A DNA stretch of 64,000 nt, from IMG/VR virus record IMGVR_UViG_3300025881_000008, positions 40,075 through 104,074 of that record; one strand, 5' to 3'. This document shows, in pieces, positions 1 to 40,697 of the stretch (the stretch's first letter is position 1; each line of letters opens with the position of its first letter). The notes beneath the pieces were generated by a model. It did no database searches. It was given only the letters and a program-made list of their open reading frames with translations, and had not been told where the DNA came from. Position numbers and translations under genes: made by a program. Origin of the DNA: a virus.

Positions 1-1054
1 CTTTACCATACTCTACTCCAATTTTTTTATTTGTTTCAGCTAGCTTTCTGGCTAATAGTGATTCTGTAATTGCCACTGGTGATGAGGCTTTATAAAGAGG
101 CATTCTAGTAATAGTGGCCAATGTTAATAGAACTTCCATTGATCTTAATTGCTTGTCTATATAATAAACCAAACAGGAGTCAATTACGTTGTAGTAGACA
201 TATTTAGTAAAATCATTTTCATAAAGATCTTGTAATGAACCTGTGTATTTAATTTTGGTAACATCTAAAACTGCACCTGACACAAAGTCTAATGAGTTAG
301 ATTCTTTTACCGCAACTGATCTGTCATATTTGTCATATAATTGCATGTAATCTAAAATACCCATATGAAGAGGTCTACTATCATTTCTGTCAAGTGATCC
401 AGTGATCGCCACATCAGTCAGGTCGATCTGAAGTCTCTTGCAACGATTAACTATATACTGCCAGTCATAGTTGATAAAATTCCATCCAGTCATCATTGGG
501 AACTTAGGTAAAAACTTATGCAAGAATGTATATAACATATTGTACTCATTATCAAATTTATGATATGAGAATTCCCAATCTTGATCATAGTTCTTTAGGT
601 GGGCATTAGTATCTTTCTCAATTTTAGCAATCTGCTCTGATGTTAAATCTTCAAGACCTAATACAATTGCTTTACGCTCAGGCGTGATGATCGAGAAGGT
701 TAAGATACGTGACTTAGCCTCTTCTGGTTTTGGGAAACCATCAACGATTTCTGTTTCAATATCGACGAAATATGTTCGAGGCATATTGAATTCATAAATC
801 TCTTCTTTATCTGCCGCTGGCAGGCTATCCATAAAATAGAGTAGACTGAACTTATTAAATGACTTAGCGATACCTCTTTTTAGTGGGCGATTGTCCCAGT
901 TTCTAAAAGTCTTATCCTTATATTTATCTTTTTCTTCTGTAACTACCCAATTTTGGAATTGGTTTACAGTGTATCTTTTAAAGGAAACTTTACCCTCTTT
1001 GTCATAATAAGAGATGATAAGTTCCTTGTCAGTTTGTTCAATGTCTAATAGCAT
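1..1054 (-). CDS. 43: Family B DNA polymerase, T4 gp43-like (partial, N-terminal exonuclease part)
   Basis: Replicative DNA polymerase. About 351 N-terminal residues are inside the window and the polymerase domain lies beyond the left edge. The 3'-5' exonuclease motifs are readable: Exo I as FVDIETE (Asp98, Glu100), Exo II as TGWNFINYD, and Exo III as YYNVIDSC. The N-terminus MLLDIEQTDKELIISYYDKEG is T4-gp43-like. The start ATG (1052-1054) overlaps the stop of the upstream dUTPase gene by one base (TAATG), which implies translational coupling. It is the last visible gene of the nucleotide-metabolism cassette. The exonuclease residues look intact, so proofreading is expected. Family assignment is firm; only the truncation limits it. 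Confidence 0.93.
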   Translation of the reverse strand, partial: MLLDIEQTDKELIISYYDKEGKVSFKRYTVNQFQNWVVTEEKDKYKDKTFRNWDNRPLKRGIAKSFNKFSLLYFMDSLPAADKEEIYEFNMPRTYFVDIETEIVDGFPKPEEAKSRILTFSIITPERKAIVLGLEDLTSEQIAKIEKDTNAHLKNYDQDWEFSYHKFDNEYNMLYTFLHKFLPKFPMMTGWNFINYDWQYIVNRCKRLQIDLTDVAITGSLDRNDSRPLHMGILDYMQLYDKYDRSVAVKESNSLDFVSGAVLDVTKIKYTGSLQDLYENDFTKYVYYNVIDSCLVYYIDKQLRSMEVLLTLATITRMPLYKASSPVAITESLLARKLAETNKKIGVEYGK

Positions 1055-1521
1055 TAGTAGCCTCTTTTTTGACGGTTCTTATTTTCTTCTGCTTTTGCGA
1101 AATAATAATTATATGCTGTCTTTGCATCGAGGCCAATTGATGCCGCATAATTAATAAAGAAGTGCAATACATCAATCCACTCCATAAAAAGTTCTTTACG
1201 ATCATCTTCTGATAGATCAGAAACTTTTATTGTCTCGTACTTTTTAAAGTCTGCTTTCCAGTATTTCCAAACTGCGTTCCCTGAGCCATCTTTAATGCCT
1301 CCTAATGCGTCTGTCATTTCGTGTAGTTCATCTATCACTGCATGTGTGTTAACATGCCAGAAGTCCATTACCTCGCGAATAGACATGTTCTCAAACTTAA
1401 TGCCATAAGTTTTTTCTTGCATCTCTTTTTGATGAGACATAATGTCTTCTAAGTGTGTCGTTGAATCATTGTAAAAATCTTTTACTTCAAGATCTTTGCA
1501 TTCGTTATCTATATTTGCCAT
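1054..1521 (-). CDS. Dimeric all-alpha dUTPase (dUTP/dUDP pyrophosphatase)
   Basis: All-alpha NTP pyrophosphohydrolase of the dimeric dUTPase family (155 aa). It shows the two metal-binding acidic motifs: E65-L-H-E68, and E114-W-I-D117 followed by VLHFFINY. The C-terminal signature is ENKNRQKRGY, where the RQ..GY ending is typical of dimeric dUTPases. The enzyme hydrolyses dUTP (and usually dUDP) to dUMP, keeping uracil out of DNA and supplying dUMP for thymidylate or hydroxymethyl-dUMP synthesis. It lies immediately upstream of the DNA polymerase and downstream of the PLP-enzyme gene, with a 51-base gap. Together with the dCMP deaminase at 63193-63705 it would feed a dUMP pool. A broader MazG-like specificity is possible. 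Confidence 0.82.
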   Translation of the reverse strand: MANIDNECKDLEVKDFYNDSTTHLEDIMSHQKEMQEKTYGIKFENMSIREVMDFWHVNTHAVIDELHEMTDALGGIKDGSGNAVWKYWKADFKKYETIKVSDLSEDDRKELFMEWIDVLHFFINYAASIGLDAKTAYNYYFAKAEENKNRQKRGY

Positions 1522-1571
1522 ATGTAATTTGTTATATTATTAGTATGCTAATTTGTGAGATAGTTTCATTG

Positions 1572-2468
1572 TTATTTGTCCATTTCTAAAACTTCTCCCC
1601 ATTCTCTTTGAGAATTAGTTTTTTCTTTAGTTTCTTCTGATTCTGGATAGGGTTGTCCACCTACATTCCAAAACCATGCACCGGGCGTTCCGTGTTTTTT
1701 CATAAATTCCCAAGCTTTAGCATCATAGTTCATTGCAGATGGAAATGGTGGTGCGTATTTAGGATTTACATCAGCGGCAAATGCCTTAGGATGTGACCAA
1801 ACTTTTGCTTTACCTAATTCACCATCTTTAATATTCCTAGATACTGCTACTGCGTTAAATTGAGCATCTGGCCATGCAATCTGCAAAGAGCGCTGTAATA
1901 CGCCTGTTGAAATAGCAGACCAAACCTCTTCGGGGTATCCATGTTTTTCTGCAATATCATACGCTACTTTAACAGCCGCTGCTGTTACTAATTCATGTTT
2001 TAAACCCAATGGTATAAAAGTTGCATTGTTTGCTTCCGCCCATTCTTTTGCTATTTTATTTAAATTTGGCATGGCAGCAATTCTTCTGAACTTAGGTATT
2101 GCACCCCTCTCAATACAAATAGCTTGATGATCTGAAATTACTTTACCTGAAGGCATAAATAAAACCAGTTTCTTGTTATACTTATTTGCCAAATAAGCAA
2201 GAGAAATTCCCGCAAATCCAAATCTGGGCTGTACATAAACTAATGTATCTGTTGGTGCTTTTTGAACTAAAATATCTCCGAATCTACATTTGGATCCAAA
2301 CCCCATCATATCATCTCTGACTACATTGAAACCATCGTGATTCATTATAATAGGATCTTCTAGTGGATCTTTCCAGTCACCAGCTAAATCTAACCATGCT
2401 TGTCTATTTGGCATCATTAGATTTAAGTCTTGGTTCATTTTACTTGTTGTGTGAGTATCATGTGCCAT
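1572..2468 (-). CDS. PLP-dependent fold-type II enzyme (ACC deaminase/D-cysteine desulfhydrase-like)
   Basis: A 298-aa protein resembling the tryptophan-synthase-beta superfamily. Around residues 46-63 it reads FNVVRDDMMGFGSKCRFGD, matching the RxDD..GGNKxRKL block of ACC deaminase and D-cysteine desulfhydrase, which makes Lys60 the candidate Schiff-base lysine. A cofactor-cradling segment follows (GISLAYLANKY, then LFMPSGKVISDHQ), and STGVLQRS near residue 188 fits the phosphate-binding loop. Substrate cannot be read. The neighbours (LOG-like nucleosidase, a possible thymidine-hypermodification transferase, dUTPase) suggest amino-acid chemistry linked to nucleotide or DNA base modification rather than plain amino-acid catabolism. 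The ATG at 2468 is separated by one base from the LOG gene stop. It could also be a cysteine-synthase-like metabolic gene. Confidence 0.68.
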   Translation of the reverse strand: MAHDTHTTSKMNQDLNLMMPNRQAWLDLAGDWKDPLEDPIIMNHDGFNVVRDDMMGFGSKCRFGDILVQKAPTDTLVYVQPRFGFAGISLAYLANKYNKKLVLFMPSGKVISDHQAICIERGAIPKFRRIAAMPNLNKIAKEWAEANNATFIPLGLKHELVTAAAVKVAYDIAEKHGYPEEVWSAISTGVLQRSLQIAWPDAQFNAVAVSRNIKDGELGKAKVWSHPKAFAADVNPKYAPPFPSAMNYDAKAWEFMKKHGTPGAWFWNVGGQPYPESEETKEKTNSQREWGEVLEMDK

Positions 2469-2469
2469 A

Positions 2470-3141
2470 TTAAAAGTTTGTTTTAGGTCCTAAATATTCT
2501 GGACTAGTCATATATTTGTTATGGTATTCCATTACTTTGTTTCTAGCTTCATCTGCACTATCGACAATTCTAAATAGATCAAAATCCTTTTCACTCATTC
2601 TACCTGAACCCAATAATTGATCCTTCATCCAATCAATTAAACCGCCCCAGTACTTTTTACCGACTAGGACTATTGGATATGTTATATTATGGCCGGTCTG
2701 TGCAAGGGTTATGGCTTCGAACATTTCATCTAATGTACCCACTCCACCTGGAAAAATAACAAAGGCTTGTGAATATTTAAGAAACATTACTTTACGAGTA
2801 AAGAAATATCTACATTCTACTCCGAGGTCAACATATTTGTTCATGCCAGATTCAAATGGTAATTCAATTCCAATTCCAATAGATTTTCCACCTACTTCTT
2901 TAGCGCCGTGGTTTGCGGCTTGCATAATACCAGGTCCACCTCCAGTAATCACTCCAAACCCTTCACAGGCTATTAGCTTACCGAATAGTTTCGCCTCTTC
3001 ATACCATTTAGTTCCTGTCATTGTTCTAGCACTTCCAAAAACGGAAATACAGGGTCCTAATTCACTGAATGTATCAAATCCTTTGGTAAATTCACCCTGG
3101 ATTCGCATGATCTGCCATGCGTCTTCTGCTTTATTTCTCAT
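2470..3141 (-). CDS. LOG-family nucleotide phosphoribohydrolase-like protein
   Basis: Rossmann-fold LOG/'lysine decarboxylase-like' family member (223 aa). Diagnostic motifs are GGGPGIMQAANHGA (67-80), with the conserved R116-K117, and PGGVGTLDE (131-139). Family members hydrolyse the N-glycosidic bond of nucleoside 5'-monophosphates, releasing base plus ribose 5-phosphate; true lysine decarboxylase activity is a historic misannotation. All active-site motifs look intact. The start ATG overlaps the upstream stop by four bases (ATGA). In this cassette it could clear a host or unmodified nucleotide, or process an NAD- or nucleotide-derived signal; both are inferences. Family membership is firm, substrate unknown. 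Confidence 0.85.
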   Translation of the reverse strand: MRNKAEDAWQIMRIQGEFTKGFDTFSELGPCISVFGSARTMTGTKWYEEAKLFGKLIACEGFGVITGGGPGIMQAANHGAKEVGGKSIGIGIELPFESGMNKYVDLGVECRYFFTRKVMFLKYSQAFVIFPGGVGTLDEMFEAITLAQTGHNITYPIVLVGKKYWGGLIDWMKDQLLGSGRMSEKDFDLFRIVDSADEARNKVMEYHNKYMTSPEYLGPKTNF

Positions 3142-4346
3142 ATATTAGCTACCATTTTTTTATATTCTTCTACTGAAACATTAGCAGATTGTAGTATTTT
3201 ATCATCTGACGGGAATGAAGTCATGCCATTAAATGTTTCAACTAGACCTAAGTCTAACATTGCTTTTTGTCTACCATACGGATGGTCTTTGATAGAAGAC
3301 GAGTTCCATAAAGTATCCATGTTAATATGTGCATAATCAGCACCAGGTCTTAGATAGTTTTCAATCCATCTAATAAAGTCGCATGCAACATCTTCTGCAT
3401 TATATGGCAATGAACCAGTGTCTTCGTATATTTTAGTCATTACTGCATCTAGAAACGGTTCACTTCTTTTACCTTTGTAATCGACCGGATCTGCTAAATA
3501 ACCAATACATTCTACTGCATTTGTGCCGTAATAGAACATTGATTCTCTGTTGATATATTCTGGGTACCAGTCAGCCACGTCTGCAATAACAGCTGCGTAT
3601 TGGAATTTATATTGTCTCAGTCCGTTTGCAACATTCCAATCAAACATCCATTGACCAAGTTGTCTTAAGTCTTTTTTACCACCATCTCTCAAATAACCTG
3701 CCATGTCTCTAGCCAATCTTGGTGCAAATTCACACAAGAAATAATCCCCGCCTCGTTTATAGACATATTCTGGTTCTTTAAATGATGACATACCAACAAA
3801 ACTATCCTCATTTTGAGTTGGTTGTGGAGGTTTAGGAAATGCTGGAAATTGATAACCAACTGAAGTGTAGAATGGCGTTGGGTGGTATTTTACCTTTTCA
3901 CACATTTCTTCAATTGTATCGCAATCGTGTAGATCAAATAGGATTGTATTATGATAACCAGATGGTTTGGTAGCGTAGTTAATTGCTGAGCCACAAACTC
4001 GATGGAGAATAAAAACATACAACCATTCTTCTAGGCCAAAAATATCTTGTCGACTAGTCCAATTTTTTGCAACCTCTTCTCTTTGGGGGTAAATTTTACC
4101 AGCTTGCATATGTTGCCAATACGGATGTTTATCTGTCCATCCATAAAAACAATCATTTATAATTTGACTAAAACCAGCATACTTTCGTTCCACAACATCA
4201 TACAGTTGTATATGTTCCATTAAAGGATCATTCATACCACTTTCATCATGTGGCACCATGCCTAAATTACTAAGCTCTTGTTGTTTTAATGCTAAATTAA
4301 AATACCTAATAAATTCGTCATAATATTGGGTTGTCTTAATTTTCAT
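3138..4346 (-). CDS. Putative thymidine-hypermodification protein (amino acid:DNA transferase / aGPT-PPlase-like helical fold)
   Basis: A 402-aa mostly helical protein without a simple enzymatic motif. By eye its blocks follow the layout of the phage helical family first called alpha-glutamyl/putrescinyl-thymine pyrophosphorylase and now partly assigned as 5-hmdU DNA kinase helical domain or amino acid:DNA transferase. Those blocks are an N-terminal DPLMEHIQLYDVVERKY segment, EEWLYVFILHRV, a GTNAVECIGYL loop, and the C-terminal segment NAEDVACDFIRWIENYLRPG. The match is motif-level only. I start it at the ATG at 4346 (MKIKTTQYY) rather than the TTG at 4355, because the upstream small gene ends within an 11-base overlap there. 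The neighbouring PLP enzyme, LOG protein and dUTPase fit a base-modification pathway. It could be an unrelated helical family. Confidence 0.48.
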   Translation of the reverse strand: MKIKTTQYYDEFIRYFNLALKQQELSNLGMVPHDESGMNDPLMEHIQLYDVVERKYAGFSQIINDCFYGWTDKHPYWQHMQAGKIYPQREEVAKNWTSRQDIFGLEEWLYVFILHRVCGSAINYATKPSGYHNTILFDLHDCDTIEEMCEKVKYHPTPFYTSVGYQFPAFPKPPQPTQNEDSFVGMSSFKEPEYVYKRGGDYFLCEFAPRLARDMAGYLRDGGKKDLRQLGQWMFDWNVANGLRQYKFQYAAVIADVADWYPEYINRESMFYYGTNAVECIGYLADPVDYKGKRSEPFLDAVMTKIYEDTGSLPYNAEDVACDFIRWIENYLRPGADYAHINMDTLWNSSSIKDHPYGRQKAMLDLGLVETFNGMTSFPSDDKILQSANVSVEEYKKMVANI

Positions 4347-4500
4347 TTTGCTCAATTATTTTCCATGCAAATGGATCTCTATTTCTAGCATATTCATCCA
4401 TTGACCATTCTATATCACCAGTGGTAATTTCTATACTATATGATGCATCCGTAGCATGATATGGTGTTATCTCTATCTTGTATAATTTAGTGTATTTCAT
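4336..4500 (-). CDS. Small hypothetical protein (54 aa)
   Basis: Short ORF from the ATG at 4500 to TAA at 4336-4338, starting MKYTKLYKIEITPYH and ending KIIEQNEN. It fills an otherwise empty gap between the GDSH-motif gene (stop at 4502) and the hypermodification-like gene, and overlaps the latter's ATG by 11 bases, so the pair is likely translationally coupled. It is acidic to neutral, predicted mostly beta then helix, with a Trp/Met-rich DIEWSMDEYARNRDPFAW segment. No family recognised. The tight packing and intact reading frame make it a real gene more likely than not. Confidence 0.6.
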   Translation of the reverse strand: MKYTKLYKIEITPYHATDASYSIEITTGDIEWSMDEYARNRDPFAWKIIEQNEN

Positions 4501-4501
4501 T

Positions 4502-5572
4502 TTAAAATAATGCTGTTTGTATTTGTACTACTTTTAGTTTTTTATTTGGTTCATTATTAACAAGATCCCATCGATAAAATTCTCTAGCGATGTGAACTGA
4601 TTTAGGTTTTTCCATTACATCAAAACTTAACTCACCAATCGGATTTTTATATGCACCTGAGTGTTTCCATGTACTCCATCCATTGCGAGTACACATATCA
4701 ACAATCATTTCATTCATAAGTTTCACAAGATCAGTTCTCTCTTGCCAAGAACCAGCAAATGGGGTGTCTTTATAATAACCAGTCTTTGGTAATTGCCTAG
4801 ACTCATTCTCAATTGGCAATGCTTGTATAACTTCAATGGTTTTAATACCCGATTGTTGAAGTGTTTGTTCATATTGCACCATCATCTTAGTCAGTGCTGA
4901 TACGGGATCATCCTGTCGCATTAAATGATGTCTTATGTCGATATTACCAAGATATATCCTAAGCTCATTAGTCCATGGGTATACATAATCTAATAGACCT
5001 CTCTTTAGAGTTCCAAATAGAGTTAAACCATCATTACGATTGACCATAAAACCTGGCGTATATTGACTAAAACTATGTGAGTCTCCAAAGCAAAGCTTAT
5101 CGGTCTTTTCAATATGGTCTACTCTTTGGATTCCAGAGCAAATCTCTCTAGCCTCTTCAATTCTAGTCTCAAGTGTTTTAAATAGTTCCGAGCCAGTCTT
5201 TAATCTCTTCTCAATTAATTCTGCAATTGAAGGCATATCATGATGTAGTGAATACATCCTAGGACCTTTAGTAAAAAGTCTATTAATCTGGTGGAATAAC
5301 TCGTCGTTAGCCCCGCCGAATATATTGAACGCACCTTTATATTCCATACCATGCTCAAGAAGGACTACATCAAATTCCGACCAGTCCGTAGTCCAATCTG
5401 TAATTACAGTAGCATTCTTATAACCAGCATTTACCAATTGGTTACACAGCATAAAAGCCCAACCAGACTTATGTGAGCTTGGCTTAGGGCTTAATTTACC
5501 AACAAGTGCAGATATTGCTATCTTAATTGACTTGTCAGATTCATAATCTGTAAAGTATTTAAAGTTCTGCAT
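4502..5572 (-). CDS. Unknown protein with SGNH-hydrolase-like GDSH motif
   Basis: A 356-aa protein of unrecognised function. The N-terminal third looks Rossmann-like (SGWAFMLCNQLVNAGY, then FDVVLLEHGMEY). The middle contains LCFGDSHSFSQY, resembling block I (GDS) of SGNH hydrolases, and YLGNIDIRHHL, resembling their G.ND block. A final DxxH block is not obvious, so catalytic competence is uncertain. I chose the ATG at 5572 (MQNFKYF), which overlaps the upstream stop by 14 bases; a start at 5611 would extend much further into the preceding gene. It sits between the DUF6378-like gene and the putative hypermodification gene, so an esterase, acyl- or glycosyl-transfer role on a modified nucleotide is conceivable but unproven. 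Confidence 0.5.
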   Translation of the reverse strand: MQNFKYFTDYESDKSIKIAISALVGKLSPKPSSHKSGWAFMLCNQLVNAGYKNATVITDWTTDWSEFDVVLLEHGMEYKGAFNIFGGANDELFHQINRLFTKGPRMYSLHHDMPSIAELIEKRLKTGSELFKTLETRIEEAREICSGIQRVDHIEKTDKLCFGDSHSFSQYTPGFMVNRNDGLTLFGTLKRGLLDYVYPWTNELRIYLGNIDIRHHLMRQDDPVSALTKMMVQYEQTLQQSGIKTIEVIQALPIENESRQLPKTGYYKDTPFAGSWQERTDLVKLMNEMIVDMCTRNGWSTWKHSGAYKNPIGELSFDVMEKPKSVHIAREFYRWDLVNNEPNKKLKVVQIQTALF

Positions 5573-5870
5573 CTTCTGTACCCATTGGTTTTTCAGTTTC
5601 ACCATAACCATACTTCTTAATATAGTTATCTAAGCCACCGATATACGCCACTGCGTCAAGTAGATTGTCTTCTTTATAATTATATGAATGTCTACTTAGT
5701 TTTAATGCAACAAGTGCTGCGTACATGTCCGCTCCGGTGAATTCTTTACCAGTCATTCCGCCACAAATCATTGCAGCTCGGCGCATGCCTTCTTCAAAAG
5801 GACCATACATGCGTTCTTTCTCTTCTGAACGATGATTAATAATTTTGTCTGCTTCGTTTAAAATATTCAT
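5559..5870 (-). CDS. DUF6378-like small phage protein
   Basis: A 103-aa all-alpha protein. The pattern R..K.RMYGPFEEGMRRAA, then TGADMYAALVALKLSRHS, then DNLLDAVAYIGGLDNY matches the widespread phage DUF6378 layout (YG-x-n-hydrophobic block, K..R helix, D...D..GY helix). This layout recalls the metal-binding helices of MazG-like nucleotide pyrophosphohydrolases, but no activity is established. It is the second gene of the cassette after a 53-aa basic protein. Its 3' end overlaps the start of the next gene by 14 bases. The start ATG at 5870 has an A-rich leader with no Shine-Dalgarno sequence. Confidence 0.65.
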   Translation of the reverse strand: MNILNEADKIINHRSEEKERMYGPFEEGMRRAAMICGGMTGKEFTGADMYAALVALKLSRHSYNYKEDNLLDAVAYIGGLDNYIKKYGYGETEKPMGTEDAEL

Positions 5871-9917: not shown

Positions 9918-9925
9918 TATTTATA
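9918..9925 (-). promoter_or_regulatory. Candidate T4-type late promoter (TATAAATA)
   Basis: Minus-strand TATAAATA, identical to the T4 late-promoter consensus, 16 bases upstream of the ATG at 9901. The region is AT-rich, so chance occurrence is possible; support comes from similar TATAAAA boxes before other virion genes in the window. Confidence 0.4.
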
Positions 9926-11768
9926 TATTCTTAATAAATTGATCGAAGGTCATAACAGATTTTGACTCTGCCAAAACACCCATACTGTCTTCTAATTTAG
10001 ACTTTAATTCACCATACATGTTGTGTATCTCTTTAGGTGTTAGTTTCTTAAATAGCTTCTCATCACCATCTAGCATTGCATTTCTAACTTGCGTAGCTGA
10101 AATATTTTTACCAGTTCTTGGAATTTCAAAAAGACCAAAATCAGTCCTTACACCCAAGTCTTCTCTATATTCTGGTTTATCAACTTGATATGAATACGTT
10201 TTAAGTCTATCACTTCCAGTGCCCCATAATACGGGTTCATAACCATCGGCTCTCATTGTATTAAACATTAGGTCAATTGCTCCCCTGTCAATAATATAAA
10301 CCTTCTCAATTGGATATTTACCTTTTAGTTGGTTTAACATTTGAAGTTGAGTTTCTTCGTCGTATGGTCTAGAAAAAGCATCCTCTTTCTTTTTAGTTTT
10401 TGATTTAACTAGAAAAACAACTACCGGATAACCGTTTTGTTTATTAATAGTCTCAACTACTTTAGCATGGCCCAGCGTAAATGGTTGGAATCTACCAACG
10501 AACATGTTGACTGGTGTTTTACCTTGTTCTGGGTATTTAACTGTAAGCCCCTCTAAAACTGGACTAACTTCATGTTGAAGTTTTTGGTTAACTAAATATG
10601 TTTTAAATGTCATAACGTCATTTTCATTTGTTTTTGCCATTACAATGCCTTCTATAGTTTCAACTATTTCATTGATTTGGTTCATTAAGTCAGTGTTAAT
10701 AATGTCTGTTTCTCTAGTTCTCTTCTTTCTAAAACTACCTAACGCAATTTTAAATAACTCTGCCAAAACTTTATTTTGAATTAATGATATTGTTTTTTCA
10801 TCTTTAATAAATGTACGATTAAGATCAAATCCTTTGTTGTCTGAGAAATCAGCTGAATCAAAATTAGCTCCAATATATTTAGAGGCATTCTTTTCAATGT
10901 ATGCATTAAATATATTTGAGATTAATTCAATATATCTAAGGTCTGACTCTTCTTCTGATATTTCAATAGCTAATAAATCATAGTTAGTAATAAATTCTAC
11001 TAGATCTAAAATTGAAATCTGATACATGTCAGATGGACTTCTTTCCTCTTGTGGTTTTCTATCAAATCTCTCTAGCTTAAAACTCTTAATGTTTTTACCT
11101 TCGTAGAAATTGATTATTAACCCATCAATATCTTTATCTAGTGTAAAGTTTAACGCAGGAGTATTAAGGCCATTATTAAATATATTGTATATTGTTCTAG
11201 TAAATGATTGTGATTCAAACTTAGTTATGAAGTCTTGATCAGATGTGTTTAGAAGCGATATAAGGTCGTCCTTTTGATTAGATTGTAGTTTACCTTCAAA
11301 TACAATTGGCGGTCTCTGAACTCCTAATTTATCCGCCCATTTGTTTAGAACCTGTGGATCTCTAATTACTTTTTTAATTTGAGTAGGATCATTTGGGTTT
11401 AATACTTGTATATGTGTTAGGATTAAGTGGTTTTTAGGTAGTACATCATATTCAATGCTTACCGTTTTATTATCCAACATGTAGTCAAAGCCGAATTTCC
11501 AATCTAATGGCATCTCTTCGGTAACTTCTTTTAATATTGTTGAAAAATATTTAATACCATTTTCATAGTATTTAACCATGGTTCTATCTACTCTATCCAT
11601 CTGGTATTTAGAACCGCTTTTATAATAGTTAAAGCCTGTATCGGTTCTTTTAACATGAAATGAAGATGCTTGAATCTTTTCAGATACAACGCATGTCAGG
11701 TCCAACATAGCCAAAAAGTCATTGGTATTAGTTGATTCAAAATATGTTCTTAAGTTTTGTAAAGCCAT
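9921..11768 (-). CDS. RNA-ligase-fold domain fused to NMN-adenylyltransferase-like (cytidylyltransferase-fold) domain
   Basis: A 615-aa bifunctional candidate. Residues 20-240 show covalent nucleotidyltransferase motifs: motif I SEKIQASSF (Lys31), motif III KFGFDYM, LILTHI, motif IV DIDGLIINF and motif V SFKLERF. Residues 418-600 form a nucleotidyltransferase alpha/beta domain: NMFVGRFQPFTLGHAKVVE with the TxGH site (431-434), then ISATQVRNAM, the ISxTxxR-type motif of NMN adenylyltransferases. Motif I has QAS where DGS is usual, so ligase activity is uncertain. The C-terminus carries MTFDQFIKNI, reminiscent of the capsid-targeting peptide. It lies directly downstream of a second ligase-fold gene. 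Roles in RNA repair or NAD+ replenishment are inferences. Confidence 0.68.
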   Translation of the reverse strand: MALQNLRTYFESTNTNDFLAMLDLTCVVSEKIQASSFHVKRTDTGFNYYKSGSKYQMDRVDRTMVKYYENGIKYFSTILKEVTEEMPLDWKFGFDYMLDNKTVSIEYDVLPKNHLILTHIQVLNPNDPTQIKKVIRDPQVLNKWADKLGVQRPPIVFEGKLQSNQKDDLISLLNTSDQDFITKFESQSFTRTIYNIFNNGLNTPALNFTLDKDIDGLIINFYEGKNIKSFKLERFDRKPQEERSPSDMYQISILDLVEFITNYDLLAIEISEEESDLRYIELISNIFNAYIEKNASKYIGANFDSADFSDNKGFDLNRTFIKDEKTISLIQNKVLAELFKIALGSFRKKRTRETDIINTDLMNQINEIVETIEGIVMAKTNENDVMTFKTYLVNQKLQHEVSPVLEGLTVKYPEQGKTPVNMFVGRFQPFTLGHAKVVETINKQNGYPVVVFLVKSKTKKKEDAFSRPYDEETQLQMLNQLKGKYPIEKVYIIDRGAIDLMFNTMRADGYEPVLWGTGSDRLKTYSYQVDKPEYREDLGVRTDFGLFEIPRTGKNISATQVRNAMLDGDEKLFKKLTPKEIHNMYGELKSKLEDSMGVLAESKSVMTFDQFIKNI

Positions 11769-34418: not shown

Positions 34419-37400
34419 TTATGTGGCGAATCTCGTCAACTTTGCGGCTCTAATAGAATTTAAGTTTTTACCCTTAGGACTGTATTTAGCGAATACTTCT
34501 AGATCAAATGAGAACTGTTGATCATATTTATCAAATATATCTAAACCAATCTTTTTGGTATATGTTAAGTTAGGGAATTTTAGTTTAGCCTGTCCACCGA
34601 TTCTACCAATATCACTTGAAGCATCGTTACCGTAATAATCAGTCATTCTATATTGGAATATGATATCAACAGACAATGCATTGGAATTATCTAATGTGGC
34701 TACTCTACCCTTAATTTCTTTTCTACTCTGCTTGCTGTCACCGCCAACACTTAATGTATTTAAGTTAATCGGTGATAAGAATAAGAAAGCTCCACAAGAA
34801 CGACCACCTAAAAGATATTGATCATTAGCGCCAAACGACATTTTAAAAGTCCTATCGCCTTCTGTTATTAAATTAGAAGTTTTTTGGAATGCTAATTGTT
34901 TAGTAGCTTTAATTGAATTAACAGCAGATGGTGAAAAAGAATTTCCAATTAATGGACTACTATATACAAACGAAGTTCCACTCGCATACGTTGCACTTAT
35001 AGGCATCGTATATATTGCATTGTTAACCATTGATTGTATATTAGCCCTTTGCTCAGTATCACTAACATTATTTTCGTTTACTGCAGTTTCCTGTGCATCA
35101 GCGTATAGGTTTTCTAAATCCGGGTGGTCTTTATGAATAAACAAACCGTTGTTGTAATTTGCAGAACCTATTAATGCAGACGATGAAATACTACACACAT
35201 CAACTTTTGCTGCTGAAAATTCTCCGCTTAAGTTAGTTACTCCGCCATTATTGTATCTGCCAAAAGTTCCTGTCCATATAAAATCAACAGATGTACCATT
35301 ACCAGTTGGAGTAATTAAATCTACATTTGACGTCAATGGTTGGAATTCCGCGTAATTTAGTGAGTATTCATAATTATTTAATGAAGATCCCGTAGTAGAT
35401 AATAGAGACTCTGTTATGTATAGTGGGTTTTGATTAGAAACATCCATAAATCTAGAGTATACAAATTGTCCACGTCTTTGTGCCGATTGATATGGTGCTT
35501 CAGCCAACAAATCATAAGATTGAATCGACTTAGAATCTATATTTTGATATTGAATAGGAACCAAATCATATTTACCTTCTGATGTATAATAGTTGTCTGA
35601 GCTTATTTTATTATCTGTGTCATTTGCTCCATTATCATTTAAGGTAACACCAAACCCGTTATCTGCAATAGCAGAACCTGCTGCAGAAGATCTGTATGCC
35701 GGTAGATTTCTATCACCAACCAATCTAGAAACTAATTCTAATTTAGTGGCCTTGGTGTTTTCTAATAAAAGTTTAAATGTTTTAGTAACAATATGTCCTT
35801 TCTTAACTGTTAAACTTGCAACCTCATCTGCGTAATATCCAGCGAAGATTTGATTTTTAGTACCGTTATTAATAACAGTAACCGTACCATCCTCGTCCAT
35901 GATTTTAACAACCAATTCACCGATTTCAACTTCAACAGTACCTTTAAGTGCTGCTATTTGTGCTTCTAATTCGGCAATCTTATCATATACTGAAATTGGT
36001 TTTTGTTCAGCTGAAAGAAAACCAGACGCAATACTTGTAGCGTTGTGCGCATAATATTTTTCATTAGCACTAAAACTATCATCGATATGTGTAAATACGC
36101 CTTTAGATGTTAATTCTTCTGAAATTTTAACAGCCGCGGTTTCAGCAGCATTTGATAATAATAAAGATTCAACATTAGTTGTATCGATTTCTGTAATAGG
36201 GAAATCAATAGTGATTGCTTCTGACCAATCAGAATAAATCGGGTTAGCAGGATAACCAGCTTCAGAAACGGATTTAACTCTAATCTCTACTAATTCACCT
36301 TCGTTAATTGCAATATCTAATTGGTTAAAGTTAACCTCTTGCGCATCTTCAACCAAACTATTTTGCCACTCAAATTTATTTGTAAATGAGTTTCTATATC
36401 TGTCCCTAGCTTTAGTTTTAATTTCATTCCAATTTGAGAATACAGCTGTTTTCTCTCTAGTACCTTCGGTAAATGGAAGTTGAGTAACTTCACCTGCTTT
36501 TCCACTAGTAGACAAGTATCTATATTGTATAACAAATTGGACAATATTTTGATCTACTGTATCTGCAACTTTTTTTGCACTTGGTACAGACCAGAAACCT
36601 CTAACTCTGTATTTAGGCGTAACATTAGTTGCATTAGTACCTGATGCTAAAGATTGAATTTGATTAACAATACTGTTATAAAGATTAGTTTCACTAGTCC
36701 TCTCAGTAATAAGAGAGCTTAATTCATTTTTGTCTTTATCTTTTTGAATATTAGATTCATATTTCTTAGTAGAAATCTCAGATCTCTTTTTAACAATAGT
36801 TTCATCTAACTTCTTAATCTTTTCTTCAACGTTAACCTTATCAGCTGAAAGTTTCTTAATCTTGTCAGCCGCATCATTCGCTGTTAGGTGCGAGTTAATT
36901 TGTACTACCTTAAAGTTGTTAAGATTTAAGGTTGGAGAGTCTGGGGTAATACCCTGTGCTGCCGGTGGGATAGCATCCTCTTTAAGAGCGCTGATGTATC
37001 TACCAAAGTCAGCAACTTCAGTTTTGTAATAGTCATCAAGTCTAATTTCTGAGCCATCAGCCTGAATCAGCGTTAATTCATTTGTATATAAGCCAATACC
37101 AGGTGACCAGTTTTCAGCTAATATTTTTGAATCCGGATCTATTGCCTTAACAAAAACTATCATCCTCTCGTTAAATCCTACATTAAGGTCGATGTTTAAA
37201 TTAGCAACATCGTTTTTATAGATACCTAATTGATTCGCTCCGATTTTAATAGACTCATAACCCTCAACCGTTAATAACTCAACTTGATTAGTTGAACCAT
37301 CAACTCTTGTAATTTTATATCTAGTGTTCTTAGTGCCGCTCTGAACCATAAGTTCATCACCTGCTTTTAATACCTCAGTATCTTTAAGATCCTTAGTGGC

Positions 37401-38141
37401 ATCAGTATATGTTATTTTATCTAGTGTGTATAACTTTATAGCTTTTTTGGTAGTAACACCATCAACCACAATTTCCCTTTTAGAGTTGTTAATTTTTAAA
37501 ACATCAAACTTACCGGTAAATTGCGCATTTCTATATGGCATATCACGAGTGTCCTCATCTAGTGTGTATGAAATATTGTTATTACTAATTTCTTTAATTA
37601 TATTTGAGTAATTTAAACCCTCTTTGTTTTTATAATTAGCATTGAAAAATTCAACCGATACGGCACTGGCAGAATCAATTAAGATTCTTTTAACCAAGAC
37701 TCTTTCTGTATTATTAGGAATTTGACCACTAACATTAATACTAGTAGTTAACAACGGATTTAAGAAATCCTCAAAGAAATAGTTTGCTTTAGTTGCAAAG
37801 TTTACAGGTCTAGTGAAACTAGTAATATCATTAGCTGGTGTTTTAAGTGTAGAAGTAATAATATTTTGATAAGTACCGTCTGGTAACTTAATCCTAGTAT
37901 TACCTTTACCTAATCCAGATAATGATTTTAAATTCGTGTCCAATCTCTCCAATTCTCTCTTCATGTAACCGAACGATGGCACATAAACAGTTTTAGTCCC
38001 ATCAGTAGTTAGTATCTCAAGGGGTACATCTTTCTGATCAGTTGTAATCGCCTCATTAATTCTCTCAAATGTTTTTAAGGAATTTGTATTGATTTCAAGT
38101 AGTTTCTTGAGCGAATTAGAAATAGAGTTGTTAGTATTCAT
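34419..38141 (-). CDS. Large virion protein with coiled coil and FN3-like region (1240 aa)
   Basis: A 1240-aa structural-type protein. The N-terminus is helical (NSLKKLLEINTNSLKTFERINEAI), followed by beta-rich domains. A strong coiled coil lies around 415-490 (KIKKLSADKVNVEEKIKKLD, TIVKKRSEIS). An FN3-like region follows (FVIQYRYLSTSGKAGEV... VEIRVKSVSEAGYPANPIYSDW, the SxAG/NPIYSDW ending being typical of FN3). The C-terminal 400 residues are beta-rich and Asn/Ser/Tyr-rich. It is two bases downstream of the 651-aa gene. A baseplate-periphery or fibre-connector role fits position but is not shown by motif. Confidence 0.58.
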   Translation of the reverse strand: MNTNNSISNSLKKLLEINTNSLKTFERINEAITTDQKDVPLEILTTDGTKTVYVPSFGYMKRELERLDTNLKSLSGLGKGNTRIKLPDGTYQNIITSTLKTPANDITSFTRPVNFATKANYFFEDFLNPLLTTSINVSGQIPNNTERVLVKRILIDSASAVSVEFFNANYKNKEGLNYSNIIKEISNNNISYTLDEDTRDMPYRNAQFTGKFDVLKINNSKREIVVDGVTTKKAIKLYTLDKITYTDATKDLKDTEVLKAGDELMVQSGTKNTRYKITRVDGSTNQVELLTVEGYESIKIGANQLGIYKNDVANLNIDLNVGFNERMIVFVKAIDPDSKILAENWSPGIGLYTNELTLIQADGSEIRLDDYYKTEVADFGRYISALKEDAIPPAAQGITPDSPTLNLNNFKVVQINSHLTANDAADKIKKLSADKVNVEEKIKKLDETIVKKRSEISTKKYESNIQKDKDKNELSSLITERTSETNLYNSIVNQIQSLASGTNATNVTPKYRVRGFWSVPSAKKVADTVDQNIVQFVIQYRYLSTSGKAGEVTQLPFTEGTREKTAVFSNWNEIKTKARDRYRNSFTNKFEWQNSLVEDAQEVNFNQLDIAINEGELVEIRVKSVSEAGYPANPIYSDWSEAITIDFPITEIDTTNVESLLLSNAAETAAVKISEELTSKGVFTHIDDSFSANEKYYAHNATSIASGFLSAEQKPISVYDKIAELEAQIAALKGTVEVEIGELVVKIMDEDGTVTVINNGTKNQIFAGYYADEVASLTVKKGHIVTKTFKLLLENTKATKLELVSRLVGDRNLPAYRSSAAGSAIADNGFGVTLNDNGANDTDNKISSDNYYTSEGKYDLVPIQYQNIDSKSIQSYDLLAEAPYQSAQRRGQFVYSRFMDVSNQNPLYITESLLSTTGSSLNNYEYSLNYAEFQPLTSNVDLITPTGNGTSVDFIWTGTFGRYNNGGVTNLSGEFSAAKVDVCSISSSALIGSANYNNGLFIHKDHPDLENLYADAQETAVNENNVSDTEQRANIQSMVNNAIYTMPISATYASGTSFVYSSPLIGNSFSPSAVNSIKATKQLAFQKTSNLITEGDRTFKMSFGANDQYLLGGRSCGAFLFLSPINLNTLSVGGDSKQSRKEIKGRVATLDNSNALSVDIIFQYRMTDYYGNDASSDIGRIGGQAKLKFPNLTYTKKIGLDIFDKYDQQFSFDLEVFAKYSPKGKNLNSIRAAKLTRFAT

Positions 38142-38142
38142 A

Positions 38143-40098
38143 TTATCTTAAAATATCGGCTTCAAATTGATAGTTTGCAGGATCAATGCATACTAGTTCA
38201 ATATATGGTTTATTTGTTATTAATTGTGTTGCATCTATATCAGCTATCAATTGATCATATCCAGTAGTTCCACCAGTCCAGATTTTAATATTATTGCCTG
38301 ACATGTTTATTGCATCAAATGTAATTTTAAAAGTTTGTCCACCTTTCCAAGCGACTAAACTATCATCAATGTATATATTAAGATTACTTTCAGGATCAGA
38401 AATTGTTCCATCTGGTTTTCTAATTAAACCCTTAAGACTTAATCTATTTGTAAACAGATCCAGTCTAGTCCAAATAGCAAATTTAACTGAACCGTTACCA
38501 GCATCACCTGCGTCAAACCACACGTTATCTGATAATTGAGTTGCTACCGCTTTACCTGCTATATTCCATAAGTAAACATTATTTAACGTATAGCCATCTA
38601 CAGTGCTATTAATTTTAATTTTATTAGGAATAGTCTTATCAACTTCTGTACCCTTGCCGGCAAACAAAACATCAGTGTTATATTGTAATTCTACTGGAAT
38701 AGTTCCGTCAATTAAAGAGTTAATTTTATTATGCGCTTTAGTAATTAGATCTAAAAGCGAATTTGAGTCCGCTAGTTGAATTGAACTATCTTGAAATTCC
38801 TGTTCCAATGACGCAACCCTATTTAATAAAGATGCACTTTGCTCGGATGCCGTAACCAGATTTTCAATACTGTCAAGCCTCTCGCCTATTTTAGCATATC
38901 TATTGTTTGCTTGTAATAAAAGTTCTGTTGCATTTTCTAATGCAGTTGTAGTATCCATGAATAAATCCATAGAAAACGTCGTAAAGTCATTTACGCTAGT
39001 TTCTACACCAACATTATCAAGTGATGAATTAAATTTTAGATTTAACTTTAACGAGAATGCGTTACCATTAAGACCAGTAACTTCATTTGGTTTATATTTA
39101 ATCTGTTCGTTAATTTTAGAACCGGGTCCATAAGAATCTTGAATATCATCAAGAATTAAGATACCGTATAAGTTTGTAGCTCTATTGGCTGGCACTGACT
39201 GGCTATAGATGTCATAGTATACAAGAATGGCATTAAAAGTAAACTGTTGACCCTTTTTAGCAAAGTCAAGTAATGATTTAATTTCAGGATTTGTATTAAT
39301 CTCCTCATATGCATTAGCATCAAACTGAATACCTACACTATTAGTAGCATTAGTTTGGATGTCATAATAAGCCCCGCTACTTAACGTATAGCTATCAACA
39401 ATTGCATTAATATTAATATTAGGATCAGGGTGTGTTTGACCCTCTCTGCCCTCGATATAATCAGATGTATATAATTTAGTAGCTGTAGTATTGTAGTTTG
39501 TTGGTTTAAATAAAACAGTAGGTGTATAACCAACTGAAGTAGGAACATTAATATAAACCTCGTGATATGTATTGCCTTGATATGCAACATCATTCTCAAC
39601 ATCAATAGTTCCTAAATATTTAACAACTTTATCATAGTTCTCACTAGCAAGTACACCATTAACCTTTTCGGTATAATTACCTAATAGAGTTTGATTAGAA
39701 TCTGCCGTAATAAAATCAATAGCGCCTAACGAAGATAGCCATTTAAAGAAAATCTTTTCAGAATCAGATTGTAAAAGAATTGGATCATAATCGTCATCTT
39801 TTAACAAAAGTTCTTCCATGTTTAACGCATAGTTCTGGAATGTTTGTGCGAAATCAACGTTAGGCATGCCAGCAACATAAGCTTGACCAGAGGGTTGCTT
39901 AAGATTTAATTCAAAGTCTATTGTGTTAGAACCATTAACCGAATCAGTAAAATCTGGAAGATCTAACAAAGCATATTTGCTAAACTCAAAATTTAAGTCT
40001 GAACTATTAAAGGCCCTAGTCATATCCCTCGCAGAAGACGCAAAAGCATACATTGTGCCACCCATGGGCTGTGGTATTCTAACTAGTGGAGTTGCCAT
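38143..40098 (-). CDS. Virion protein, fibre- or baseplate-associated (651 aa)
   Basis: Starts MATPLVRIPQPMGGTMYAFASSARDMTRAF, a Gly/Ala/Pro opening often seen in baseplate-associated proteins, continues with beta-rich domains (DFELNLKQPSGQAYVAG), has a coiled-coil segment at about 400-460 (RLDSIENLVTASEQSASLLN, RVASLEQEFQDSS), and ends in a lectin-like beta domain (IYIDDSLVAWKGGQTFKITF). The coil-then-beta-head layout fits a trimeric short fibre or fibre-connector. No family recognised. Gap to the next upstream gene is 20 bases. Confidence 0.55.
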   Translation of the reverse strand: MATPLVRIPQPMGGTMYAFASSARDMTRAFNSSDLNFEFSKYALLDLPDFTDSVNGSNTIDFELNLKQPSGQAYVAGMPNVDFAQTFQNYALNMEELLLKDDDYDPILLQSDSEKIFFKWLSSLGAIDFITADSNQTLLGNYTEKVNGVLASENYDKVVKYLGTIDVENDVAYQGNTYHEVYINVPTSVGYTPTVLFKPTNYNTTATKLYTSDYIEGREGQTHPDPNININAIVDSYTLSSGAYYDIQTNATNSVGIQFDANAYEEINTNPEIKSLLDFAKKGQQFTFNAILVYYDIYSQSVPANRATNLYGILILDDIQDSYGPGSKINEQIKYKPNEVTGLNGNAFSLKLNLKFNSSLDNVGVETSVNDFTTFSMDLFMDTTTALENATELLLQANNRYAKIGERLDSIENLVTASEQSASLLNRVASLEQEFQDSSIQLADSNSLLDLITKAHNKINSLIDGTIPVELQYNTDVLFAGKGTEVDKTIPNKIKINSTVDGYTLNNVYLWNIAGKAVATQLSDNVWFDAGDAGNGSVKFAIWTRLDLFTNRLSLKGLIRKPDGTISDPESNLNIYIDDSLVAWKGGQTFKITFDAINMSGNNIKIWTGGTTGYDQLIADIDATQLITNKPYIELVCIDPANYQFEADILR

Positions 40099-40115
40099 TT
40101 ATTAATTAAATTTTG

Positions 40116-40122
40116 TTTTATA
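40116..40122 (-). promoter_or_regulatory. Candidate late promoter box (TATAAAA)
   Basis: Minus-strand TATAAAA about 17 bases upstream of the ATG at 40098, overlapping the end of the upstream coding region. Same box type as before other virion genes. Confidence 0.3.
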
Positions 40123-40684
40123 CTATGTCAGTATTGTATGCTGAAATAACATACCATACATTATTAAAGCATCTTAGTGTTACTGTTGAGTTTTTACCTA
40201 CAAGCGAGATAGTAGTTGCTCCAAGTGATTCTTGACTTAGGCCTGAAACAGATTTAGAAGTATCCGATGTATTGATAATCGTAACCTCTTGGCCATCTAC
40301 AGCTTCAGGTAATGTAAAGTTAGCTTCAACAAAATATGTAATCGCAGTGATTGCAGTTGGTGTAACTTGTGTAGTCGGTACAGCTGCTGTACCCAATACC
40401 CCACTTTTAACTAATGTTCCGTTAAGTTTAGCAACATTGCTAATAGTAACTGGTGTATTAAACGCAGCTCCTAAACTATTAACGGACAATAGACTTGTGC
40501 CGTTTAATAAAACTAACAACTCAGCGGTCGTTACTTTAGATACTCCGCTCAAAGCCGAAGTCGTTGGGTTTAATAGAGCCGTAACAGAAGCTAACTCATC
40601 ATTTAGCAACTCAAAATTGCTATTGATGATCGGTCTCGATGAAGATACTGAATCAGTACCTAAAATTTCAGTGATGTTTGCCAT
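40118..40684 (-). CDS. Small fibre-like protein (188 aa)
   Basis: N-terminus MANITEILGTDSVSSSRPII closely resembles the start of the collagen-like fibre gene (MAINIQEILHPSDSDS...), with the shared I-x-EIL and NxNF motifs (NSNFELLNDELAS versus NYNFDQIL), suggesting a common attachment module. The remainder is Thr/Val/Ala-rich beta sequence (TPVTISNVAKLNGTLVKSG) ending in a short C-terminal domain with VTIINTSDTSKSV and TISLVGKNSTVTLRCFNNVW strands. Likely a short trimeric fibre or spike attached to the baseplate. Function inferred from architecture only. Confidence 0.58.
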   Translation of the reverse strand: MANITEILGTDSVSSSRPIINSNFELLNDELASVTALLNPTTSALSGVSKVTTAELLVLLNGTSLLSVNSLGAAFNTPVTISNVAKLNGTLVKSGVLGTAAVPTTQVTPTAITAITYFVEANFTLPEAVDGQEVTIINTSDTSKSVSGLSQESLGATTISLVGKNSTVTLRCFNNVWYVISAYNTDIV

Positions 40685-40697
40685 TTTATTGTTTTTA

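Follow-up and report, generated by a model that had tools for sequence, protein, structure and literature searches.

A predicted hypermodification cassette, probably directed to 5-hydroxymethylcytosine, beside the DNA polymerase gene of a viral contig

What chemistry is encoded by a run of closely packed genes that ends in a DNA polymerase gene, and on which base of the DNA would it act? The run lies at the beginning of a stretch of 64,000 nucleotides (the window), positions 40075–104074 of IMG/VR virus record IMGVR_UViG_3300025881_000008, an incomplete 104-kb contig (G000) of an uncultured virus that looks T4-like by gene content. It codes for a DUF6378 protein, a protein with a GDSH motif (GDSH protein), a helical protein of 402 residues (P402), a LOG-type protein, a pyridoxal phosphate (PLP) enzyme and a dCTPase/dUTPase; in relatives a second helical protein, X, may be present. 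A first-pass annotation, made from the letters of the window, had proposed hypermodification of thymidine. The block is probably a post-replicative DNA hypermodification cassette, and its predicted substrate is 5-hydroxymethylcytosine (hmC).

The block proposed earlier is confirmed, and it is conserved. All genes of the first-pass annotation were located on the minus strand (Table 1). Neighbouring starts and stops overlap or almost touch, in an operon-like manner, and the dCTPase stop is overlapped by the polymerase start. The order DUF6378, GDSH, P402, (X), (LOG), PLP, dCTPase, polymerase is kept in 80 close IMG/VR relatives, so the arrangement is not due to chance; the earlier claim of a coupled unit running into the DNA polymerase gene holds for genes, strand and coordinates. 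An outward search gave 160 distinct P402 loci, reduced to 56 after clustering at 90% identity, and one scan gave 485 related environmental virus contigs. In the 56 loci the core is P402, PLP enzyme and GDSH protein, in variable order, with X in about half; of the testable loci, 41 of 43 have the PLP enzyme and all 38 have GDSH. Two groups are distinguished. Group A, which includes the window, carries the PLP enzyme in 18/18, GDSH in 18/18 and the dCTPase in 17/17 testable loci. Group B carries the PLP enzyme in 23/25 and GDSH in 20/20, with a gene of the thymidylate synthase (TS) family (cluster c4) close upstream in 21/25.

The LOG and DUF6378 proteins are accessory and stand outside the core. 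Both had been counted as members of the unit, and their presence is borne out by Pfam (PF03641 and PF19905). In the T4-like subgroup DUF6378 keeps its place upstream of GDSH; LOG, present in just 7 of the 56 loci, was dropped as a core enzyme. A CitG-like gene (triphosphoribosyl-dephospho-CoA synthase, PF01874, E 8e-11) replaces LOG in three LOG-less loci, L059 (5191–5988), L063 and L064. Characterised members of both the LOG and the CitG family act on nucleotides and on N-glycosidic bonds. In the relative G003 (L098, 8694–13617) LOG lies away from the P402 block, between a canonical TS gene and a dCMP hydroxymethylase gene. Other insertions are an FkbM-type methyltransferase (PF05050, E 9e-16), which separates the dCTPase from the polymerase in a single relative (L048, 8597–9175), and a ~200-aa open reading frame (ORF) lying between X and PLP/LOG (L012, 8409–9014; L072, 6105–6716), the L012 copy with a NUMOD3 motif (homing-endonuclease-like).

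The PLP enzyme is homologous to a protein of the phage M6 thymidine-hypermodification cluster, which supports reading the block as a DNA hypermodification cassette. The family of the window matches an M6-type PALP profile by hhalign (98.7%, E 3.5e-16). With M6 kept out of the profile, M6 is matched at E 4e-7 after addition of Erythrobacter and Microcystis relatives and at 1e-11 with a wider set; a marine-only profile misses it (E 10). A match at E 2.5e-74 was not used, because M6 itself was in that alignment. The phage family is marked by a C-terminal signature, PFPxxxxYDxKAW...FWNxG, common to the M6 protein, and includes proteins of Erythrobacter phage ZS04, of Microcystis phage Mae-JY30 (beside ParB/sulfiredoxin genes) and of M6, the last adjoining the amino acid:DNA transferase (ADDT). 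Lys60 is invariant in the alignment, and the nearest solved structures are cysteine synthases (Protein Data Bank, PDB; E 5e-5). The protein is a putatively active fold-type-II enzyme. In M6-type pathways a PLP-dependent enzyme decarboxylates an amino acid already on the base. In ZS04 an 812-aa protein (L084, 2326–4764) joins an N6_N4 DNA methylase domain to the PLP enzyme; this phage also has a PAPS-reductase-like feature, possibly pointing to another DNA modification there.

P402 and X are plausible homologs of the superfamily of ADDT and of the helical part of 5-hydroxymethyl-deoxyuridine (5-hmdU) DNA kinase (HMUDK). The two are collinear over one stretch (p 0.005–0.02), which holds a Cys-containing ED..C motif that looks, by eye, like those of ADDT and HMUDK. 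The AlphaFold model of P402 is poor (pLDDT 56, pTM 0.59), and its Foldseek matches are to be read as a hint, not as proof: one, at E 3.7e-27, is a phage protein of 57% identity to which UniProt gives the name amino acid:DNA transferase, a label not reproduced with Pfam, and another is a second ADDT-labelled protein (E 0.057, probability 0.97). The earlier likening of this protein to ADDT has these structural neighbours in its favour and no significant match in Pfam or hhalign. Searches with P402 and X against PDB sequences, and by tblastn in 50,697 phage records, gave no match.

The GDSH protein has two unlike halves. Its AlphaFold model is of high confidence (pLDDT 91), with a Foldseek match to sialate O-acetylesterases/GDSL lipases (E 2e-5), and an SGNH fold is predicted for the C-terminal part. 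The GDSH block, the GxID block and a late His (of VH) are invariant in the family, consistent with the SGNH superfamily; the corresponding residues are S161, N206/D208 and H323, numbered by alignment A5 (first row, window 5560–4502). The front half bears a weak, specific resemblance to that half of T4 beta-glucosyltransferase (BGT) which binds hmC. Nine of 30 members give weak matches to Pfam PF09198 (T4 BGT) over the first ~140 residues (best E 5e-4), hhalign gives p 1e-4 against T4 BGT, and the BGT residues N70, F72, G73, G74 and D100 (the last being the catalytic base of BGT) are kept in 32, 33, 33, 33 and 28 of 33 sequences. No genuine BGT (PF09198) or AGT (PF11440) was found in ten genomes scanned, where sub-threshold PF09198 matches fall inside GDSH. 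The GDSH proteins of Aeromonas phages 44RR and UP87 extend into a C-terminal domain that weakly matches HMUDK_hel (44RR, E 0.0036); this fused domain occurs in 19 Aeromonas phage records and ties GDSH to the helical hypermodification proteins. Together with the PLP homology and the ADDT-labelled neighbours of P402, the fusion upholds the earlier proposal that a DNA base is hypermodified.

The two halves also allow a simpler scheme, in which GDSH, as an SGNH acyltransferase, would just acylate or esterify hmC while P402/X and the PLP enzyme make or load the donor and no amino acid reaches the base. The union of an SGNH fold and a BGT-like half within one protein fits this scheme, as does the occurrence of GDSH without PLP enzyme and P402 in Aeromonas, Stenotrophomonas and Tenacibaculum phages. 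It is considered unlikely, since the PLP family is tied to M6 and GDSH occurs fused to an HMUDK_hel-like domain in Aeromonas phages. In Tulaneviruses a UDP-galactopyranose mutase gene lies near the GDSH homolog (annotated in IME13, L430; a similar protein in phage 25, L112, 4776–8047), with a glycosyltransferase-like ORF between the two, an arrangement that suggests sugar tailoring there.

The genes of nucleotide supply are of the cytosine type, as judged by homology, and thymidine as the target is not supported. The protein first labelled dUTPase is a T4 gp56-type dCTPase/dUTPase: tblastn gives 33% identity over 97% to gp56 dCTPase of phage CC31 (E 4e-17) and also matches gp56 of 44RR. Its role as a dUMP supplier was dropped. 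The c4 proteins are 54–56% identical to T4-type gp42 dCMP hydroxymethylases (T4, Aeromonas). In TS homologs Asn177 goes with dUMP and Asp with dCMP, and the Asp type is tied to modified cytosine in viral contigs (PMC8670742). Asp stands at the base-specifying position in all 25 c4 proteins, as in T4 gp42 (D179); the M6 enzyme has Asn. Large relatives of the window phage have an Asp-type enzyme as well: in the group of the window, G003 and G004 each have a normal TS (Asn) and a divergent second copy (Asp). G046 and G047 also have an Asp-type enzyme. A TS-family gene is present in 12 of 12 GDSH-bearing genomes tested, and an Asp-type copy was seen in ten (Aeromonas 44RR, 25 and UP87, Stenotrophomonas IME13, G010, G016, G021, G046, G047, G048). 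Group-B neighbours include dCMP deaminase and PRA-PH, which adjoin an hmC carbamoyltransferase in viral contigs (PMC8670742). In G004 (L097, 5144–9011) the Asp-type hydroxymethylase is flanked by genes for a ClpA/ClpB-type AAA ATPase and a ClpP-type protease, with homologs at the same place in G003.

Thymidine hypermodification as in phages M6, ViI and phiW-14, with 5-hmdU as target, is accordingly very unlikely. The PLP homology to M6 and the ADDT-labelled neighbours of P402 (the label not reproduced by Pfam) speak for it. The dCTPase within the block and the dCMP-type Asp of every classifiable associated hydroxymethylase speak against it, and so do the searches that had been suggested for its remaining genes. 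The 5-hmdU DNA kinase (PF18723, HMUDK_hel) gave no match in G000 and six relatives, and ADDT (PF18724) was recovered from 0/6 and 0/40 relative records; the M6, ViI and phiW-14 controls were found in both cases. A dUMP-type (Asn) hydroxymethylase was not found beyond the window either: G000–G002 have no TS-family gene, and every divergent TS homolog of relatives that could be classified has Asp. A cluster for nucleotide metabolism or anti-defence in the replication region, leaving the DNA unmodified, would suit the ordinary neighbours (polymerase, ribonucleotide reductase, dCMP deaminase, PRA-PH) and the nucleotide-directed LOG and CitG families, and is improbable in view of the BGT-like residues of GDSH, the PLP homology to M6, the GDSH-HMUDK_hel fusion and the constant pairing with hmC-type genes.

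For the hmC-directed cassette the following sequence of steps is proposed. By homology, the gp56-type dCTPase would take away dCTP, and 5-hydroxymethyl-dCMP would come from a dCMP hydroxymethylase of the gp42 type, whose gene lies elsewhere in the phage group, so that the polymerase would put hmC into DNA. The BGT-like half of GDSH may then bind hmC in DNA, and its SGNH half may carry out acyl or ester chemistry on the 5-CH2OH group. The hydroxyl would be activated and/or swapped for an amino-acid-type group by P402, together with X in the loci that have it, and the M6-related PLP enzyme would then reshape the attached group, for example by decarboxylation. The LOG or CitG-like gene would provide optional tailoring. 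The purpose is likely the shielding of phage DNA from host nucleases.

Several results weigh against this assignment. P402 fails both Pfam ADDT and Pfam HMUDK_hel; among 28–29 P402 members no Pfam match (ADDT included) was obtained, and X is likewise without one. Comparison of P402 with ADDT and HMUDK profiles by hhalign is insignificant, even with profiles enlarged to 15 and 68 sequences; ADDT against HMUDK itself gives just p 0.006, so hhalign cannot decide the kinship of P402. Within the block, neither a kinase nor an enzyme for an amino-acid donor can be recognised. The best PF09198 score of GDSH is 20.1 bits, under the cut-off of 27, and BGT is absent from its top 50 Foldseek matches against the PDB. 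Of the 12 GDSH-bearing genomes, G045 has no visible Asp-type copy and the divergent copy of PTm1 is not classifiable. No TS-family gene is present in the incomplete contig of the window or in its two larger relatives, G001 and G002 (165 and 150 kb). The genes flanking the Asp-type copy in G003/G004 are, except LOG, missing from G000 (positions 1–40000 compared) and G001; since the whole flanking region is gone, the absence of TS is weak evidence, and a missing stretch is its simplest reason.

Table 1. Genes of the block and of its polymerase-side flank, in window coordinates
Feature	Position	Strand	Evidence and remarks
DUF6378 protein, 103 aa	5559..5870	-	Pfam PF19905, E 1.3e-9; accessory; first gene of the unit
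GDSH protein, 356 aa	4502..5572	-	Core gene; N-terminal half like the acceptor domain of T4 beta-glucosyltransferase, C-terminal SGNH-hydrolase fold (predicted)
Conserved ORF, 54 aa	4336..4500	-	Overlaps P402 start; similar short ORFs in L074, L075
P402, helical, 402 aa	3138..4346	-	Core gene; candidate transferase or kinase on the 5-hydroxymethyl group
LOG-type (Lysine_decarbox/SLOG) phosphoribohydrolase-like protein, 223 aa	2470..3141	-	PF03641, E 6.7e-32; accessory
PLP fold-type-II enzyme, 298 aa	1572..2468	-	PHROG 7093, E 8e-38; core gene
T4 gp56-type dCTPase/dUTPase, 155 aa	1054..1521	-	tblastn to gp56 dCTPases
Family-B DNA polymerase, N-terminal part	2..1054	-	PF03104, E 2.6e-11; phrog_2062, E 5.8e-50; context

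For GDSH the start at 5572 is preferred to a longer ORF start at 5611, which is less likely. The 54-aa ORF had been overlooked in the first-pass annotation. The family-B polymerase gene is split (G000, 34833–41128; L002; window 2–1054): the N-terminal part spans the window edge, the C-terminal part lies beyond the window, and the genes for NrdB, NrdA and a sliding-clamp-like protein separate them. Two polymerase ORFs likewise occur in Aeromonas avDM2. Elsewhere in the window (9921–11768) a 615-aa protein has a C-terminal nucleotidyltransferase-like stretch (GRFQPFTLGH). The contig also codes for a 2-oxoglutarate-Fe(II) oxygenase (PF13640, E 6e-9) and a sugar-transferase-like protein (L002, 12475–13050; L001, 16564–17184).

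Known systems share parts of this gene set. The thymidine systems of M6, ViI and phiW-14 comprise ADDT, PLP enzyme, radical SAM protein, 5-hmdU DNA kinase and dUMP hydroxymethylase. Common to them and the present cassette are a homologous PLP enzyme beside a helical protein (M6), a TS-family hydroxymethylase in the genome (here, of relatives) and modular, varied gene sets; the present cassette differs in its cytosine-type supply and in its SGNH/BGT-like protein and dCTPase, and HMUDK_hel, Pfam ADDT and radical SAM were not found. Since three defining features failed (kinase, ADDT, dUMP-type hydroxymethylase), it is not classed with these systems. With the T4 hmC system it shares a gp56 ortholog and, in relatives, one of gp42; further parallels are the closeness of hmC-supply genes to the polymerase gene and the BGT-like front half of GDSH; unlike T4, it has four unrelated or rebuilt genes in the tailoring role, and BGT/AGT were not found (ten genomes). 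In Aeromonas 44RRORF233c and PHG31ORF233c the N-terminal half is the GDSH ortholog and the phages carry gp42 and gp56; here, unlike there, no HMUDK_hel-like domain is fused to GDSH, and those phages give no PLP or P402 match. The MetaGPA phages (PMC8670742) have an Asp177-type TS homolog, dCMP deaminase and PRA-PH near the tailoring gene, which is a 5hmC carbamoyltransferase there and P402-X-PLP-GDSH here. The CmoA/CmoX/CmoY hypermodification of 5-carboxymethylcytosine (PMC12783734) is likewise directed to cytosine and appends an amino acid (glycine), but depends on an amide ligase and on a homolog of C5-methyltransferases that uses Cx-SAM; no such gene was recognised here.

A literature search, with most subscription journals outside its coverage, found this gene set described together nowhere. 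Hypermodification with amino acids by way of a hydroxymethyl base has its precedent in thymidine. The tailoring of hmC of which we are aware is by sugars and, from one metagenomic study, by carbamoylation. A novel hmC pathway adding amino-acid-derived groups is tentatively proposed, in which M6-type PLP chemistry and ADDT/HMUDK-like helical proteins would be combined with an SGNH acyl-transfer domain grafted on an hmC-recognising BGT half. With its gp42, gp56 and GDSH fusion, Aeromonas phage 44RR offers a cultured system for a concrete test. If the proposal is true, the cassette would supply new enzymes with which hmC could be marked or protected and would explain unknown proteins of the Aeromonas T4-like phages 44RR and 31. 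Such a cytosine counterpart, in a family spread over hundreds of environmental virus contigs, would widen natural DNA chemistry.

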